Below, in pieces: positions 17,825-26,110 of a stretch of 64,000 nucleotides of DNA (the stretch's first letter is position 1; each line of letters begins with the position of its first letter). Origin of the DNA: Microbacteriaceae bacterium. Its GTDB lineage: Bacteria; Actinomycetota; Actinomycetes; Actinomycetales; Microbacteriaceae. The DNA lies in NCBI GenBank assembly GCA_025464995.1, contig JAODMO010000054.1, forward strand, positions 62,001 through 126,000, in the 5' to 3' direction. A program made the translations under genes and the position numbers. A model generated the notes under the pieces. It ran no database searches. It was not told where the DNA came from and saw only the letters and a list, made by a program, of their open reading frames with translations.

Positions 17825-18472
17825 TCACTGCCGGTCGCTGTGCGGATGGTGCAGGTGCCACGCCGGGGCTTCAGAACGGATGCCGGGCATCGTCGTGACG
17901 TTGTGGCGGGGCGGTGGGCACGATGTCGCCCACTCGAGCGACCGCGCACCTCCCCGCGGATCGTCGGCCGTGACCACGGGTGCCGCGCGGGTGGTCAGGT
18001 AGACGTTGTAGAAGAACGGCATCATGCAGGTCGTGAGGATCGCCCCTCCGACGGTCGACAGCTGATGTATCCACGTCACGTTGTCCTCGGGCGGGTAGGC
18101 GGCGTAGCGCCGCGGCATGCGGTGACGCCGATCCGGTGCTGGATGAGGGAGGTCGTGTGGAACCCGATGAAGAGACGCCAGAAGTGCATCTTGCGAGCGT
18201 CTCGTCGAGCACCTTCCCGGTCCACCTCGGAGCTGGTTGTGCTGCTCCTGAGTGTCGACGACGCCGAGACCCGGCGCGAAGAGCTGAGCCCGGATGACGA
18301 GGGCGAGCCCTCCCGCGAAGCAGAGGTACGCGAACGACGTGACGAGATACGTGTACCCGATCTGCTTGTGATCGGTCGATGTGATGTGTTGGGCCAGACC
18401 GAAGCGACGGTGCATCGTCGGTGGCGCGGCCGGGTGACGGTCGGTCGCCCCATGGTCGCTGTCATGTTGCAC
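17825..18472 (-). pseudogene. ctaD: decayed cytochrome c oxidase subunit I gene
   Basis: Three pieces of CtaD survive in order. The N-terminus (about 81 codons, 18472-18230) has TSTDHKQIGYTYLVTSF and VVDTQEQHNQL. A middle piece in another frame (about 18195-18121) carries KMHFWRLFIGFH and IQHRIG. The C-terminus, back in the first frame (18118-17825), has MPRRYAAYPPED, FFYNVYLT, SLEWATSCPPPRH and LHHP. Roughly 370 residues of a normal ~570-residue protein are missing between the first two pieces, including most heme and copper ligands, and there is a frameshift near 18121. It cannot make an oxidase. A working copy must exist elsewhere for aerobic growth; this looks like a dying paralogue. Confidence 0.85.
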
Positions 18473-19471: not shown

Positions 19472-20221
19472 ATGAATCTAGCGGCAGACCTTGACGGCGC
19501 AGTGCTGCGCGGTGAGATAGTCGCCGTCTTCCAGCCCCAGTTGGATGTCCGCACCGGCTGCATAGTGGGGGTCGAGGCGCTCGCACGGTGGAATCATCCG
19601 CACCTCGGGTCCATTCCGCCCCAGACGTTCATCGCCATCGCGGAGGAGCACGAGCTCATCGGCGAGATCGGCGACTTCATGATCGACGAGGGATGCCGGT
19701 GCGCCGCGGAGTGGAATTCGCCGGGTCGCCGGGTGGAAGTCGCGGTGAACGTCTCGGCTGCCCAGCTGCTGACCCTCGATTTCCTGGAACGCGTGACCGA
19801 CAACCTCGCGAAGTACTCCCTCCCGGCAGACCACATCGTGATCGAGATCACGGAATCGCTTCCGGTGCTCGATGTGCCGGAGGTCGCAGACCGGCTCGTG
19901 CACCTCCGCCGACTCGGTCTCGGGATCTCGATCGACGACTACGGAACGGGATACTCCTTGCTCGCTCGATTCGGAACCGTGCCCGCGACGGAGATCAAGA
20001 TCGACCAGAGCCTCATCCAGGCCAGCGGGGAGAGCACCCACCTCATCGGTGACGCCGTCGAGAGAGCCCATGCGATGCGCGTGCGCGTCGTCGCCGAGGG
20101 AATCGAGACCGAGGAGCAGTTGCAGCGCGCCCGCGACCTCGGCTGCGACCGCGTGCAGGGCTATCTGCTCGGACGTCCCGCCTCGGAATGCGACACGGCG
20201 CGCCTGCTTTCCGTAAGCTGA
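19472..20221 (+). CDS. EAL-domain c-di-GMP phosphodiesterase
   Basis: 249-aa stand-alone EAL domain that would linearise c-di-GMP. All catalytic elements are visible: EALARW (about residue 35), NVSAAQL, EITES, DDYGTGYS, EIKIDQSL, VVAEGIETEEQ and RVQGYLLGRP, so activity is expected. There is no sensor or membrane domain, so control must come from transcription or partners. ATG 19472 was chosen since the domain begins right after it; the ribosome site is weak (GGGGC). It precedes the RsbQ-like hydrolase and diguanylate cyclase, giving synthesis and breakdown of one messenger side by side. Confidence 0.9.
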   Translation: MNLAADLDGAVLRGEIVAVFQPQLDVRTGCIVGVEALARWNHPHLGSIPPQTFIAIAEEHELIGEIGDFMIDEGCRCAAEWNSPGRRVEVAVNVSAAQLLTLDFLERVTDNLAKYSLPADHIVIEITESLPVLDVPEVADRLVHLRRLGLGISIDDYGTGYSLLARFGTVPATEIKIDQSLIQASGESTHLIGDAVERAHAMRVRVVAEGIETEEQLQRARDLGCDRVQGYLLGRPASECDTARLLSVS

Positions 20222-20273
20222 GGAGTCGGCGCGGCGTGCGTCGGAGAGCTGGACCTGGGAGGATCTGGGAGAT

Positions 20274-21086
20274 TTGACCGCTACCGATGAGCGCTCGGTC
20301 GTCCGGCGCAACAATGTGACCGTCAGCGGCAACCCCGACGGTCGTCCCATCGTCTTCGCGCACGGCTTCGGGTGCAACCAGGACGTCTGGCGCGACGTGA
20401 CGCCGGCCTTCCTGGCCGAGTACAAGGTGGTGCTGTTCGACCACGTGGGCGCCGGGGATTCCGACCTCGCCGCGTACGACTTCGCGAAGTACGACTCGCT
20501 GCACGGATACGCGGACGACCTGCTCGAGATCCTCGACGACCTCGACCTCGTCGACGTCGTGTTCGTCGGACACTCCGTCAGCGCGATGGTCGGAGTGCTG
20601 GCGGCGAGCCGTGCTCCGGCGCTATTCGGCGCGCTGGTTCTCGTCGGGCCGTCGCCGCGTTACATCAATGACGCGGATTACGTCGGCGGGTTCGAGTCCG
20701 TTGACATCCATGCGCTTCTCGACGACCTCGACTCCAACTATTTCGGCTGGTCGGCCCTCATGGCACCGGTCATAACGGGCAACCCCGACCGGCCCGAGAT
20801 CGGGCAGCAACTCACCCGCATTTTCTGTGCGACGGACCCGACCATCGCGAGGCACTTCGCGCGCGTCACCTTCCTCTCCGACAACCGTGCCGACCTCGCC
20901 TTCGTTACAACGCCCACCCTCGTCCTCCAGTGCTCCGACGACGTGATCGCGCCGGCCGTAGTGGGACGTTACGTGCACGAGCACATTTCCGGCAGCACCC
21001 TCGTGACCCTCGAAACCACCGGGCACACCCCGAGCCTGTCAGGACCGCTGGAGCTCGCGGAAACCATCCTGGCCTTCGTGGAGTGA
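20274..21086 (+). CDS. RsbQ-like alpha/beta hydrolase
   Basis: 270-aa alpha/beta hydrolase strongly resembling Bacillus RsbQ throughout, including APAF/FDHVGAGDSDLAAYD, GHSVSAMVGVLA, VGPSPRYIND, NPDRPEI, FCATDPTIARHFA and QCSDDVIAP. Catalytic Ser101, Asp222/223 and His251 are present. RsbQ acts with the PAS protein RsbP in energy-stress signalling, apparently by making or holding a small ligand; plant KAI2/D14 receptors share the fold. Starts at TTG 20274 after GGGAGA. Its TGA overlaps the GTG of the PAS-GAF-GGDEF gene, so the pair is translationally coupled. Confidence 0.9.
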   Translation: MTATDERSVVRRNNVTVSGNPDGRPIVFAHGFGCNQDVWRDVTPAFLAEYKVVLFDHVGAGDSDLAAYDFAKYDSLHGYADDLLEILDDLDLVDVVFVGHSVSAMVGVLAASRAPALFGALVLVGPSPRYINDADYVGGFESVDIHALLDDLDSNYFGWSALMAPVITGNPDRPEIGQQLTRIFCATDPTIARHFARVTFLSDNRADLAFVTTPTLVLQCSDDVIAPAVVGRYVHEHISGSTLVTLETTGHTPSLSGPLELAETILAFVE

Positions 21087-22525
21087 ACCTCACCGAGGGG
21101 CTGGGTGAGTCGCAGGCCTCGTTCGAGCACCTCTACGAGAACGCGCCGTGCGGCTACCTCTCCATCGCACTCGACGGCGTCATCGTTCGCGCCAACGGCA
21201 CGTTCCTCGCCTGGACCGGCTATCGGCGCGACGACCTGGTCGGCGTGCCTCTCGTGACGCTGCTCCACACGGGAAGCCAACTGCTCTACGAGACGCGGTA
21301 CCTCCCTGCGCTGCTGCTCAACGGCGAGGCGCTCGAGGTGGCGCTGGAACTACGGCGCGCTGACGGCACGTCGATGCCGATCCTCGTCAACGGCGCCCTG
21401 GTGCGCGACGAATCGGGCGCGCCCCAGGGCGTGCGGTTCGCGATCTTCGACTCGAGCGTGCGCCAGGGGTACGAGCGACAGCTGCTCGCCGCCCGGCGCC
21501 TGGCCGAATCATCCGAGTCGCACGTCCGCTCGCTGCAGGATGCGTCGAGTCGCTTCGGCGCGGCGACGACGGATGGTGCGCTCGCCGACGCTATCGCGCT
21601 CACTGTGCGCGGGGCGTTCGCTGCATCGGGCGCCTCGGTGTACCTGGTCGACGACGAGGGTTCGCTGCAGCGGGCCTCGGGTGATTCGCCCGCGGGATCG
21701 CTTCCGCCCTTCGGATCGGGATTGGCGGAGGTGGCGATGCGCGGGTCGCGCACCGTCGTCGTGAACCGGCCGAGCGCGAGTGCCCGGCCCGACATCGCCG
21801 ACGCACTGCGGGCAGCCCGCGCCGAGACGCTCGTCGTGGTGCCGTTGCGCGACGGTGACCGGCCACTCGGCGTCGTCGTCGCAGTCTTCGGCCGCGCCCG
21901 AACATTCGACACCGCCGACACCGACCTGCAGGAAGCGCTCGTGCGCCAGGCGGAGCAGGCGCTCATCCGCATCCGCCTGCAGGGCCAGCTGGAGCGCTTG
22001 GCGCTCTACGACCAGTTGACGGGCCTCGCGCGACGGAACGTCGTGCGCGAACGGCTCATGGACGCGATCAGGCTTGCGGAGCTCACGAACAGGTCGATGG
22101 CACTCGTCTTCATCGACCTCGACGGCTTCAAGGCGATCAACGATGAGCTCGGACATGTCGTGGGCGACAGCGTGCTCACGCAGGTCGGCGAGCGCTTGCA
22201 GTCGGTTGTGCGCAAGGGAGACGTGGTCGGCAGATTCGGCGGCGACGAATTCGTGGTCATCTGCGAGAACGCGGATATCGGAGCCGTCGAACGCGTCAGC
22301 GAACGCCTGCACGCCGCCATCCGCGAACCGTTCACGGGCACGGCGAGCGGGGCGGTGCTGACGGGCAGCATCGGCGTCGCCATCCATTCCGCGCGCGGGC
22401 ACAGCGACCTCTCACCTGACGCCATGATCGAGTGCGCGGACGAGGCCATGTACCGGTCGAAGCGTGCGGGCAAGAACCGCACCACGATCGTGGCCAGTGA
22501 GGCGGAGAATGAGCGGAGGAGGTGA
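21083..22525 (+). CDS. PAS-GAF-GGDEF diguanylate cyclase
   Basis: 480-aa cytoplasmic protein making c-di-GMP from two GTP. PAS domain at about residues 10-130 (FEHLYENAPCGYLSI), GAF-like domain at 150-295, GGDEF domain at 305-470 with DQLTGLARR, FIDLDGFKAIND, and intact RFGGDEF at 384-390. An RKGD inhibitory site five residues upstream suggests product feedback. No membrane helices. GTG 21083 overlaps the stop of the RsbQ-like gene; by analogy to RsbQ-RsbP the PAS domain is the likely receiver of the hydrolase signal (inference). Confidence 0.9.
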   Translation: MNLTEGLGESQASFEHLYENAPCGYLSIALDGVIVRANGTFLAWTGYRRDDLVGVPLVTLLHTGSQLLYETRYLPALLLNGEALEVALELRRADGTSMPILVNGALVRDESGAPQGVRFAIFDSSVRQGYERQLLAARRLAESSESHVRSLQDASSRFGAATTDGALADAIALTVRGAFAASGASVYLVDDEGSLQRASGDSPAGSLPPFGSGLAEVAMRGSRTVVVNRPSASARPDIADALRAARAETLVVVPLRDGDRPLGVVVAVFGRARTFDTADTDLQEALVRQAEQALIRIRLQGQLERLALYDQLTGLARRNVVRERLMDAIRLAELTNRSMALVFIDLDGFKAINDELGHVVGDSVLTQVGERLQSVVRKGDVVGRFGGDEFVVICENADIGAVERVSERLHAAIREPFTGTASGAVLTGSIGVAIHSARGHSDLSPDAMIECADEAMYRSKRAGKNRTTIVASEAENERRR

Positions 22526-22903: not shown

Positions 22904-23767
22904 TCAATGTTGCGACCGAAATTGAATGTAGGTGCCCGGTCTCGCTTGGGCGAGGTGGGCCGCGGCGGTTTCGGTGATCACACCCACTACTGGGTAGCCG
23001 CCCGTGACGGGATGATCCGCGAGAAACACGATTGGAAGTCCGGTAGGCGGAACTTGAATCGACCCCACGACACACCCTTCGCTGGGTAGAGACCCTTCAG
23101 AGACTGCGAGAGGACTCCCCGAAAGTCGGGCACCCACTCTGTCGCAATCGTTGGTCACCGTCCATCTTGTAGTCAGCAACACGTCGCGACTCGGTTTGTC
23201 GAGAAGGTGATCCCTGGGCCCCCAGAAGAACCCGAGGGTCAAGGTGGCTGGCGCCTCAAAAGTCGGGACCACTCCCGTGTATCGCGGTTCTCCGTCCGAC
23301 TGCAGAAGCTCCCACTGAGTACCTGAAGTGGCGGGACGGGTTCCGAAGTTTCCGAGCGAATCCCAGGAGGCGGATCCGAGGACTCGGTTTCCGACGATTC
23401 CCCCTTCGATCGCTAAGTAGGCGCGGAGGCCGGTGGTGGCGGGGTCGAGCCGCAGAATCGATGCTGCCGGGAGGAAGAACAGGCTCGGTTCGGGAACGGG
23501 GTGCGAGTCCACTGTCACGCCGACGGTGGCTCCGGCGACGGAACACCAGCGGCCTTCTGTGAGCCGGGCGGAGAAGCCGCCGAGCAGTATCTCAATGCCA
23601 GCGGCGGTAGGCGGATTTCCCACTATGCGATTGGCAAGAGAGTGGCTGGCAAGATCTGCTGCACCTGATGTGGAGACGCCGAGGTGCGCATACCCTGGGC
23701 GACCGAGGTCTTGAACTGTCGTGAATGGTCCTGGGTCGATGATTTCAACGAATCCAGTCATCGTCAT
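22904..23767 (-). CDS. pxpC: 5-oxoprolinase subunit C (KipA/allophanate hydrolase subunit 2 family)
   Basis: 287-aa AHS2-family protein. With PxpA and PxpB it forms the ATP-dependent enzyme that opens 5-oxoproline (pyroglutamate) to glutamate. Typical N-terminus VEIIDPGPFTTVQDLGRPGY, GVSTSGAADLASHSLANRIVG, and the late FLADHPVTGGYPVVG segment. The start overlaps the pxpB stop by four bases; an alternative ATG lies at 23761. Codon use is less GC-biased than in flanking core genes. Without PxpA beside it, an allophanate-type role would also have been possible. Confidence 0.88.
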   Translation of the reverse strand: MTMTGFVEIIDPGPFTTVQDLGRPGYAHLGVSTSGAADLASHSLANRIVGNPPTAAGIEILLGGFSARLTEGRWCSVAGATVGVTVDSHPVPEPSLFFLPAASILRLDPATTGLRAYLAIEGGIVGNRVLGSASWDSLGNFGTRPATSGTQWELLQSDGEPRYTGVVPTFEAPATLTLGFFWGPRDHLLDKPSRDVLLTTRWTVTNDCDRVGARLSGSPLAVSEGSLPSEGCVVGSIQVPPTGLPIVFLADHPVTGGYPVVGVITETAAAHLAQARPGTYIQFRSQH

Positions 23768-24393
23768 GTCGCTGTTGGCACGAAACGGATCGCATCCCCG
23801 ACATCGAGTAGGGCCGGAGAATCCGCGTTGACGTCCCAGAGAAGGGCATCAGTGTGACCGATGCAATGCCAACCTCCCGGAGTGCCGCCAGGATAAATCA
23901 AGGTCTGATTGCCTGTGATCGCGACGGTTCCGGATTCAATGCGTTGCCGCGGGCTGGGGAGTCGGGGCACGGCGATCCGGTCGGGAGTGCCTTTGATGTA
24001 GGCGACTCCAGGAGCGAACCCGAAAAACTCGACGATGTGTTCCGCGTCACTGTGCGCCGCAATCACTTCCTCCACAGTGAGGTGCGCTGCGCGTGCGACG
24101 GCAGGTAAGTCGGGTCCGTCGTATCGCACCCGAATCTCACGGAGAGGCCCCATCGGGGCTTCGGCTCCCTGCTCCAACGATGCGAGGGCATCGTTGATCA
24201 CAGCTCTGAGCAGCGGGAGTTCGTGAGCGTTCCGCGCGACGACGAGAACTGTCGTTGCGGCTGGGACGATGTCTTCGGCGACATTGTTCTTGTCGACTGC
24301 ACGGAGGGCTGAAGCCAGGGCTCGCGGAGAGCTGTCCGCTGGCTCGATAAGGAGTCCTCGGGCGCCAGCCGGGAGTACGACTGCATCAGTCAT
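23764..24393 (-). CDS. pxpB: 5-oxoprolinase subunit B (KipI/allophanate hydrolase subunit 1 family)
   Basis: 209-aa AHS1-family protein with YDGPDLPAVARAAHLT, the FFGFAPGVAYIKG signature and a C-terminal GTPGGWHCIGHT segment. It pairs with PxpC in the ATPase/transfer part of 5-oxoprolinase. Overlaps pxpA by eight bases and pxpC by four, so the three subunits are coupled in the order A-B-C. It is a little shorter than many homologues. Confidence 0.88.
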   Translation of the reverse strand: MTDAVVLPAGARGLLIEPADSSPRALASALRAVDKNNVAEDIVPAATTVLVVARNAHELPLLRAVINDALASLEQGAEAPMGPLREIRVRYDGPDLPAVARAAHLTVEEVIAAHSDAEHIVEFFGFAPGVAYIKGTPDRIAVPRLPSPRQRIESGTVAITGNQTLIYPGGTPGGWHCIGHTDALLWDVNADSPALLDVGDAIRFVPTAT

Positions 24394-25153
24394 GTCCGAG
24401 TCCTCGGAGACTCACGCCGGCGTCTTCTAGCGCGGTCCGTACGGCGGAAGCTATGAGTGCTGCGCCGGGGGTATCGCTGTGCACGCATATGGCGGCGACG
24501 GGTTCGGGTAAGTGCACCTCGACGGTTTTGTCGATTGACGTGATGCGAAGTTCGGTCACCGCGCGTACAGCGCGGGTTGCTGCTTCTGCGGGATCGGTGA
24601 TGACGGCGCCGGGTTGACTGCGCGGAACCAGAAGACCGTTCGTCTGGTACGCGCGGTCAGCGAATATTTCGGACAATGTTGCCAGCCCGGCATCGCGAGC
24701 CAAACGCTCCATGACTGTCCCGGCCTGGCAGACGATCGGCAGCCCGGGATTGAAAAGTGTCACGGCCTCGACGATTGCGCCTGCTGCATCAGGGTCGAGA
24801 GCGGCCGTGTTGTAGAGAGCCCCGTGCGCTTTGAGGTAGGAAACGTGACCACCGACAGACCGAGACAGAGTATTCAGTGCCCCTAGCTGGTACAGGATTT
24901 CGTCTACGAGGTCAGCGGGCGGCACCTCCACGCGTCGCCTGCCAAATCCTGCAAGATCTCGGTAGGACACGTGCGCCCCGATCGCTACGCCCCGATCGAC
25001 GGCTGCGCGACAAGTCCTCCGGATGATCATCGGATCGCCACCGTGAAAGCCGCAAGCTATGTTTGCGCCGGTGACAATGTCCAGAAGCGCTTCGTCGTCA
25101 CCGAACGCCCACGCGCCAAAGCCTTCACCCAAGTCGCTTTCTAGAAGAACCAT
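24386..25153 (-). CDS. pxpA: 5-oxoprolinase subunit A (LamB/YcsF family)
   Basis: 255-aa protein with the LamB/YcsF start ESDLGEGFGAW and TGANIACGFHGGDP, AIGAHVSYRDLAGFGRR, VSYLKAHGALYN and EIFADRAYQ. This is the catalytic partner that hydrolyses the phosphorylated lactam. It begins 123 bp after the DUF1989 gene stop on the same strand; the gap (25154-25276) holds no recognisable gene. Together with pxpB and pxpC it makes a complete 5-oxoprolinase. Confidence 0.9.
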   Translation of the reverse strand: MVLLESDLGEGFGAWAFGDDEALLDIVTGANIACGFHGGDPMIIRRTCRAAVDRGVAIGAHVSYRDLAGFGRRRVEVPPADLVDEILYQLGALNTLSRSVGGHVSYLKAHGALYNTAALDPDAAGAIVEAVTLFNPGLPIVCQAGTVMERLARDAGLATLSEIFADRAYQTNGLLVPRSQPGAVITDPAEAATRAVRAVTELRITSIDKTVEVHLPEPVAAICVHSDTPGAALIASAVRTALEDAGVSLRGLGHD

Positions 25154-25276
25154 TGTGGTGTCTCATTTCTAGTTGTGCATGTCTGTGGCGGAACGTCTCA
25201 GTGTGCCGGCGAACCTTTGGGTGCGCTGTCGACGATTCCTGGAAGCGGCAACACGGTTCAGTGCAGAAGAGACGCC

Positions 25277-26110
25277 CTATGCCCACTGCACCGGATTGAT
25301 TGCGTGCGTCCCCGTGTAATTCGCTCGAGTCGGGGGCGCCCATCCCTGCAGCGCATCTTCGGGGAGCTTGTAGATGTCCACGCCAATGGGGTGGCAGGTT
25401 TCAACGGGGTCTTGAGCATTCTCTCCCCACATTGGAAGCGACAGGTCGCCGCCCGGACAGGTAGAAAGTGCCATGAGGAGGTCGATTTCTGCGAAGAGCT
25501 CGAAGTGGTCGCCTGGTTGTGCCGGACAGGTCTTCATAAAGTACTGGTCATCACTGTTGAGCCCGGTGCACTGGAAGACATTGATGACGTCGTGCACGTC
25601 GAATTCAGTCAACCGGTAGGGCTGGATAGCCCGAACGAGGTTGGAGTGGCAGTGATAGTCAAAGTCCACGTCGACCAGCATCTTGTTCACATAGGGGTCG
25701 CAACGAGTGCCGAGAAGGTCGTGAACTCGCCCCCCCTCTGAATCGACTCCGTAGTTCTTCAGCGTGTCGGAGATGATCGTTGCGAGAGGCCGCAGGAACG
25801 GCAGGGTTGACCAGAGTCGATCGAATTCAGTGACGTGTGCGGCGTGGAGCTGTCGGGTGCGTGCGGCCCAGAAGCGCTCGCGGGGGTCATGGCGATTCCA
25901 GATGTTGAGGTCCCCCACCTGAGGCCCTCCCACGGTGCGAAGTCGAACGACATGTCCAGCCGGCACCTCCCAAGCACGCCCGGAGCGAATGGGAATCTCG
26001 AAACTGTCGACGAGCGTACGCCCATCCGTCTCTGCGAAGCGGCCGTAGAGGTCGCGGTCGACCGTAAGGGGGCTCTCGGCCTGTGCCTGGTATGCGGCTT
26101 CGGTACTCAT
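25277..26110 (-). CDS. DUF1989 / urea-carboxylase-associated family protein
   Basis: 277-aa DUF1989 protein. A cupin-like N-terminal half (SGRAWEVPAGHVVRLRTVGGPQVGDLNIWN) is followed by conserved cysteines in INVFQCTGLN and the segments KTCPAQPGD and LSTCPGGDLSLPM. Relatives sit next to urea carboxylase and nitrogen-compound catabolism genes and are suspected enzymes or chaperones of that metabolism. Between the GntR regulator (52 bp upstream) and pxpA, it probably belongs to the same catabolic unit, perhaps generating or processing the pxp substrate; the exact reaction is unknown. Confidence 0.8.
   Translation of the reverse strand: MSTEAAYQAQAESPLTVDRDLYGRFAETDGRTLVDSFEIPIRSGRAWEVPAGHVVRLRTVGGPQVGDLNIWNRHDPRERFWAARTRQLHAAHVTEFDRLWSTLPFLRPLATIISDTLKNYGVDSEGGRVHDLLGTRCDPYVNKMLVDVDFDYHCHSNLVRAIQPYRLTEFDVHDVINVFQCTGLNSDDQYFMKTCPAQPGDHFELFAEIDLLMALSTCPGGDLSLPMWGENAQDPVETCHPIGVDIYKLPEDALQGWAPPTRANYTGTHAINPVQWA

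Follow-up and report, generated by a model that had tools for sequence, protein, structure and literature searches.

Introduction

In the available excerpts of Nadezhdin, Brody and Price (2011; PMC3183031), 45 pairs of the alpha/beta hydrolase RsbQ and a PAS domain are coupled to a phosphatase, a histidine kinase or a diguanylate cyclase, the diguanylate cyclase modules occurring in both Gram-positive and Gram-negative bacteria, and direct contact between RsbQ and PAS is proposed. Here, we describe a cluster of this kind at positions 19472-22525 of a 64,000-nucleotide stretch, referred to as the window (assembly GCA_025464995.1, contig JAODMO010000054.1, positions 62,001 to 126,000 of the forward strand), from a Microbacteriaceae bacterium. 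It encodes an RsbQ-type hydrolase, a PAS-GAF-GGDEF protein predicted to synthesize cyclic di-GMP (c-di-GMP) and an EAL protein predicted to degrade it. The coupling of RsbQ-PAS to a cyclase is already published, and the cluster is a confirmed and well conserved case of the published kind; what seems to be new here is that the sole detected GGDEF and the sole detected EAL of the genome both lie in the RsbQ cluster.

Two signalling models are offered in the same excerpts: in one the signal is a small-molecule product of RsbQ, and in the other RsbQ contacts PAS directly and the signal lies in whether the pocket is occupied. In Bacillus subtilis, mutants of the RsbQ catalytic triad are null and the substitution F55A in the partner RsbP disrupts RsbQ binding; F55 and Y59 are the two positions at which mutation has this effect (PMC3183031, excerpts). 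The cue sensed by RsbQ-PAS is not known to the describers of the module, as far as these excerpts go. The available part of a 2025 eLife paper (PMC12143880) presents an AlphaFold2 model of RsbP-RsbQ in which RsbQ lies between the PAS domains and the linkers, and cites the cyclase coupling.

Gene cluster, domains and active sites

The cluster was found to consist of three genes on the + strand in the order EAL, RsbQ, PAS-GAF-GGDEF, with the following features.

19472..20221, + strand: predicted stand-alone EAL c-di-GMP phosphodiesterase, 249 amino acids (Pfam EAL, residues 6-236)
20274..21086, + strand: RsbQ-type alpha/beta hydrolase, 270 amino acids, TTG start (best PDB match B. subtilis RsbQ; catalytic triad)
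20574..20576, + strand: codon of the catalytic Ser101 of RsbQ
21083..21086, + strand: 4-nucleotide overlap between the stop codon of RsbQ and the GTG start of the cyclase (translational coupling probable)
21083..22525, + strand: predicted PAS-GAF-GGDEF diguanylate cyclase, 480 amino acids (Pfam)
21146..21451, + strand: RsbP-type PAS domain (Pfam PAS_9, residues 22-123, and class residues)
21269..21322, + strand: PAS F-alpha helix, residues 63-80, with Arg72 at the Y59 position of B. subtilis RsbP (AlphaFold2; spacing from the excerpts of PMC3183031)
21455..21562, + strand: PAS-GAF helical linker, residues 125-160 (AlphaFold2)
21581..21964, + strand: GAF domain (Pfam GAF_2, residues 167-294)
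22001..22480, + strand: GGDEF domain (Pfam, residues 307-466) with active site GGDEF at 386-390 and inhibitory site RKGD at 377-380

The RsbQ frame runs from TTG at 20274 to TGA at 21086, starting 52 nucleotides past the EAL stop, and the cyclase frame opens at GTG 21083, sharing four nucleotides with the RsbQ stop. An earlier note on this DNA had given the same order, strand and coordinates and had called RsbQ and the cyclase translationally coupled; order, strand and coordinates were borne out. The overlap makes translational coupling of RsbQ and the cyclase probable. Of 98 loci, two of them entered twice, 81 had an in-frame cyclase start at the equal offset (-4), a count biased upward by picking the start nearest to -4 at each locus.

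Pfam searches with the three proteins returned EAL (E 4e-63), an alpha/beta hydrolase, and PAS_9, GAF_2 and GGDEF (the last with E 9e-42). The hydrolase was most similar in the PDB to B. subtilis RsbQ (1wom, E 1e-87), by a wide margin over the next matches, Olei00960 (5e-62) and D14/KAI2 (about 1e-60), of which the latter are plant receptors, signalling hydrolases with a Ser-Asp-His triad. Its own triad is S101, D223 and H251; across 125 aligned RsbQ sequences the serine was kept in 124 (Cys in one), as were the aspartate and the histidine (one gap each). In the EAL protein E35, N93, E125, T127, E128, D155, D156, K176, E209, E212 and Q229 were all present, a set that we take to be the catalytic positions. 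The earlier note had also described an RsbQ homologue with its full triad, a cyclase with intact active and inhibitory sites and an active-looking EAL phosphodiesterase; each description agreed with these results, the last so far as residues can tell.

The AlphaFold2 model of the cyclase, built with 45 sequences (whole-model mean predicted local distance difference test score 90.7, predicted template modelling score 0.63), comprised PAS, a 36-residue helix (125-160), GAF, a 32-residue helix (277-308) and GGDEF. A helical link from PAS to the output is thus predicted, with GAF sitting between the two helices.

Conservation of the RsbQ-PAS pairing

The family sample consisted of 398 genomes for the RsbQ search (threshold E<=1e-40) and 396 for the PAS search. 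RsbQ was found in 63 of the 398, the source genome included; all 67 places other than that of the window were retrieved, giving 68. A search for conserved RsbQ-PAS-GGDEF pairs, which the earlier note had suggested, showed that the pairing is conserved: an RsbP-type PAS gene lay directly downstream on the same strand at 66 of the 68 places and contained an in-frame GGDEF at 64. The outputs were GGDEF at 55 places and GGDEF-EAL at nine. Two further outputs could not be assigned, one at a contig end and the other (L068) with GGDEF matches in other frames or pieces, and two places had no downstream PAS (L098, at a contig end, and L089, a second RsbQ copy in G040).

The reverse search with PAS alone gave 64 of 396 genomes, 62 of which also had RsbQ. 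The co-occurrence is far beyond chance, its exceptions being G284, with RsbQ at a contig end, and G036 and G312, with PAS but without RsbQ. Because 62 genomes share both partners but these last two have PAS only, the pairing is near-obligate, not absolute. The orphan in G036 (L190:3900-5318) is a PAS-GAF-GGDEF gene of the RsbQ-linked type in a genome without a close RsbQ; that in G312 (L191:3041-4795) is a PAS-GGDEF-EAL gene, again with no close RsbQ. The former offers a natural case in which to see how such a cyclase behaves in the absence of RsbQ.

Over all loci, an RsbP-type PAS stood directly behind RsbQ in 120 of 125, with four kinds of output, as scored with a profile made from 96 of the same 125 loci. 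No such PAS was detected behind L089, L132, L187 and L189. The last of these (G678), only distantly related to RsbQ (35% identity), precedes a 774-amino-acid frame that has a GGDEF match. No natural RsbQ-PAS fusion was flagged among the compared RsbQ loci.

GGDEF and EAL domains of the source genome

The source genome (2.87 Mb, 95.6% complete, 5.8% contamination) gave one GGDEF match and one EAL match, both within this cluster; EAL counting was limited to this genome. Neither HD_5 nor PilZ gave a match in it. Its single MshEN protein (PilB-like, L137) was searched with the strict and relaxed forms of the 24-residue RLGxx...Q motif from the excerpts of PMC5013675, and the N-terminal stretch tested matched neither. 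A pilus-ATPase circuit as the c-di-GMP target was dropped, the sole MshEN protein being without the binding motif.

Among the 63 RsbQ genomes, 16 had one GGDEF match and 47 had two or more. The RsbQ-linked GGDEF was the sole one detected in 14 of the 63, ten of these genomes being at least 90% complete; in the remaining two single-GGDEF genomes (G113 and G284) the loci run off contig ends. In the source bacterium c-di-GMP may be controlled from this cluster alone. Neither the sole-cyclase case nor the EAL neighbour was described in the titles and abstract openings of the open-licence papers listed for RsbQ/RsbP, or for Microbacteriaceae, together with c-di-GMP signalling.

Outputs and the RsbQ tree

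Two kinds of c-di-GMP output were distinguished. Of 62 proteins of the PAS-GAF-GGDEF class, 60 had an intact GGDEF motif and 61 had RxxD, the exceptions lying in L036 (G241) and L038 (G143). These two RsbQ-linked proteins, from one genus (g80), have the altered motifs NTNEF and REDEF, respectively, and to judge by these letters are perhaps not cyclases. In the GGDEF-EAL class the GGDEF motif was present in three of nine and RxxD in none, and the checked EAL positions were intact in all nine. Because its GGDEF is mostly degenerate and its EAL intact, this class probably acts as phosphodiesterases that degrade c-di-GMP. Genomes G241 and G248 each hold one output of each kind, with an intact synthase-type GGDEF in G248 only. 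An opposite-sign pair in G241 was considered and dropped, as its PAS-GAF-GGDEF copy (L036) has NTNEF and is without RxxD.

In a phylum sample, RsbQ was found in 24 of 396 genomes, the source genome among them. The 26 other places had 21 PPM (SpoIIE-type) outputs, two weak histidine kinase matches (28 and 25 bits), one GGDEF and two cases without PAS, these labels coming from phmmer and not Pfam. Outside the family the RsbQ-PAS input in this sample would thus mostly drive a phosphatase (21 of 26). A set of 31 named loci (two duplicates removed) gave 22 PPM, six GGDEF, two histidine kinases and one without PAS; the six GGDEF loci came from Cryobacterium, Agromyces, Subtercola and an Aeromicrobium metagenome-assembled genome, whose two loci group with Cryobacterium. 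PPM and kinase labels were assigned by single-sequence phmmer, with Pfam applied to ten loci, nine from the named set and one from the family.

A quick method was used for the RsbQ tree, which has 123 rows (L098 and L189 excluded), is unrooted and leaves 50 of its 120 inner branches open. In it the GGDEF-EAL sequences formed one clade (support 100, starred), separate from the PAS-GAF-GGDEF sequences, and another starred branch (95) set off a group made up of this clade, the PPM sequences, the kinases and a single GGDEF. Because the starred branches require at least two changes for GGDEF, the c-di-GMP output was probably acquired more than once.

RsbQ relatives also occur on 66 plasmid records (Streptomyces and rhizobia among them; e.g. 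NZ_CP062233.1), 24 of which were typed as conjugative. Of two such records inspected, one carries no annotation; on the other, a Rhizobium sp. TH2 plasmid, an annotated PAS gene is upstream of the hydrolase, not downstream.

PAS residues and covariation

The class residues of RsbP-type PAS domains are nine that were tested in RsbP (C10, L13, L48, Q53, F55, C56, Y59, E72 and P86) plus P62 (PMC3183031, excerpts). Positions were assigned here by ungapped spacing from the conserved Cys23, RsbP itself being outside the alignment. On this basis seven of the ten match B. subtilis (C10, L13, L48, Q53, P62, E72 and P86) and three differ (F55 is L68, C56 is Y69 and Y59 is R72). Of 63 rows of the PAS-GAF-GGDEF class, 57 have Arg at the position of Y59 (96-row count, classes assigned by locus number), and all 43 PPM rows have His there (120 pairs). 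The Arg may reflect a contact that has moved, or simply common ancestry. The letters DIT after PAS were found in none of 120.

A salt bridge between RsbQ Asp74 and PAS Arg72 was considered as a candidate contact. The pair ranked 6 of 36942 over 120 pairs, but 6098 (z 0.8) within the cyclase class; the signal therefore reflects the clade split and was excluded as evidence. Covariation of RsbQ with the F-alpha helix was counted among the 200 top pairs. With a window of 66-79, picked after the top pairs were known, 46 were found versus 19.9 expected for all pairs, 39 versus 19.9 for the GGDEF class, 33 versus 20.0 for all cyclases and 17 versus 19.7 for the PPM class. The bounds of the published helix (63-75) gave 33 versus 18.4 for all pairs and 16 versus 18.4 for the GGDEF class. 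Those of the AlphaFold2 helix (63-80) gave 50 for all pairs and 42 for the GGDEF class versus 25.5 expected, 35 versus 25.7 for all cyclases and 22 versus 25.4 for PPM. We take the F-alpha covariation as a weak hint only.

Neighbouring genes

Upstream of the cluster, a 215-amino-acid frame (17825-18472, - strand) contains a fragment resembling the start of COX1, cytochrome oxidase subunit I (profile positions 1-43 of 436, E 5e-5, under the Pfam cut-off), and has the appearance of a gene remnant. Downstream, 22904-26110 (- strand) holds 5-oxoprolinase-type genes (CT_A_B, CT_C_D, LamB_YcsF) and a DUF1989 gene; the genes past these, to judge by eye from their translations, encode a GntR-like regulator and an amino-acid ABC transporter.

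Discussion

The proposal of the earlier note that an RsbQ-PAS input is wired to c-di-GMP turnover is well supported, at the level of sequence, by the order and co-occurrence of the genes, the domain anatomy and the intact sites, and it withstood the note's own test of whether the pairing is conserved. We consider it likely that RsbQ and PAS form a bipartite sensor that governs c-di-GMP through this cyclase. RsbQ, produced in step with the cyclase, would contact the PAS dimer, probably along its F-alpha helix and the first part of the linker. Once its pocket had met a ligand or substrate, RsbQ would shift PAS-GAF-GGDEF through the two long helices and so set cyclase activity. The GAF domain may supply a second input, the RxxD site would limit the product and the upstream EAL enzyme would remove c-di-GMP. 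By analogy with B. subtilis, the contact would be direct, the hydrolase active site would be needed and the effect would be activating. Because no other GGDEF or EAL domains were detected, this single sensor would set the cellular c-di-GMP level.

A rather unlikely alternative, favoured in the earlier note, is Model 1 of Nadezhdin et al., in which the actual signal would be a small molecule made by RsbQ from a metabolite and taken up into the PAS pocket. The triad, kept in nearly all of the 125 aligned RsbQ sequences, favours such a role for the enzyme. KAI2 and D14, however, are close in sequence and act as receptors. The null triad mutants of B. subtilis point to a product as well, but in the excerpts of PMC3183031 no PAS ligand or cofactor is known to the authors, and the direct-contact data there and the AlphaFold2 model in the available part of PMC12143880 suit a receptor role equally well.

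It is unlikely, too, that the EAL gene is a chance neighbour outside the module. A separate EAL gene adjoins RsbQ directly upstream at 28 of the 68 family places, 26 times divergently and twice co-directionally (the window and G261), and the catalytic positions of these 28 are intact, apart from one or two rows with gaps and a single Gln in place of E212. Of the 63 genomes with RsbQ, 52 had a relative of the window EAL (E<=1e-30), versus 50 of the 335 without RsbQ, counts that are uncorrected for kinship and include fused EALs. Chance neighbourhood, on the other hand, would fit the 40 places without an adjoining separate EAL (nine of which have EAL fused to the output instead), the in-frame stop in the adjoining EAL of G153, and G037, of the same genus, whose EAL is 63% identical and located far from its RsbQ. 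The link of EAL to the RsbQ module is real but loose.

That RsbQ is a plain metabolic esterase, merely co-transcribed, with GAF or another input setting the cyclase, is very unlikely: PAS-cyclases without RsbQ (G036 and G312), the four RsbQ relatives with no RsbP-type PAS detected downstream and the position of GAF closer to the output would suit it, but not the recurrence of that PAS behind RsbQ across four output kinds.

Several observations weigh against the bipartite sensor or its sole control of c-di-GMP. With a genome 95.6% complete and 5.8% contaminated, a second GGDEF could be missed, and the 47 of 63 family RsbQ genomes with at least two GGDEF matches mean that sole control is not general. 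The PAS-cyclase genes of G036 and G312, whose best RsbQ matches are 29 and 30% identical, indicate that the cyclase is able to persist without RsbQ. Both B. subtilis RsbQ-contact positions differ here (Leu68 for F55 and Arg72 for Y59), and the covariation of RsbQ with F-alpha in the GGDEF class varies with the helix bounds (none for 63-75, some for 63-80) and is absent in the PPM class. A promoter and terminator scan found nothing, its promoter part covering one promoter type with 0.2 sites expected by chance.

One RsbQ-PAS input appears to have shifted among phosphatase, synthase and probable degradase outputs inside one phylum. We suggest tentatively that c-di-GMP is gated solely by one RsbQ, commanding the sole cyclase, in the source bacterium (here beside the sole EAL) and in a dozen or more of its relatives, that in a sister clade the same input commands a degrading GGDEF-EAL output, and that the RsbQ paralogues of G248 could act on c-di-GMP in opposite senses within the same cell. 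If RsbQ-PAS drives the only detected cyclase, the c-di-GMP level would be a simple readout for the ligand and for product delivery versus direct contact.

Comparison with known systems

Plant KAI2 and D14 belong by sequence to the same hydrolase family as the RsbQ described here, with other partners and another output. Moorella MtG, in the available part of PMC12143880, shares a stress-signalling partner that controls a GGDEF cyclase with GAF in between; its partner, however, is RsbT and not an alpha/beta hydrolase, and its N-domain is RsbU-type and not PAS. RsbQ-RsbP of B. subtilis has the same RsbQ and PAS input but a PPM phosphatase on the sigma-B pathway, whereas c-di-GMP synthesis is predicted here. 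Closest are the cyclase modules of Nadezhdin et al. (2011), which, in the excerpts of that paper, likewise have RsbQ directly upstream, an RsbP-type PAS most N-terminal, helical linkers and a cyclase output; three of them carry a C-terminal phosphodiesterase domain. The present cluster differs from these in several ways: GAF lies between PAS and GGDEF (the word GAF does not occur in the available text of PMC3183031), EAL is encoded by a gene of its own in cis, Leu replaces F55 and Arg replaces Y59, and its GGDEF and EAL are the sole ones detected in the genome.

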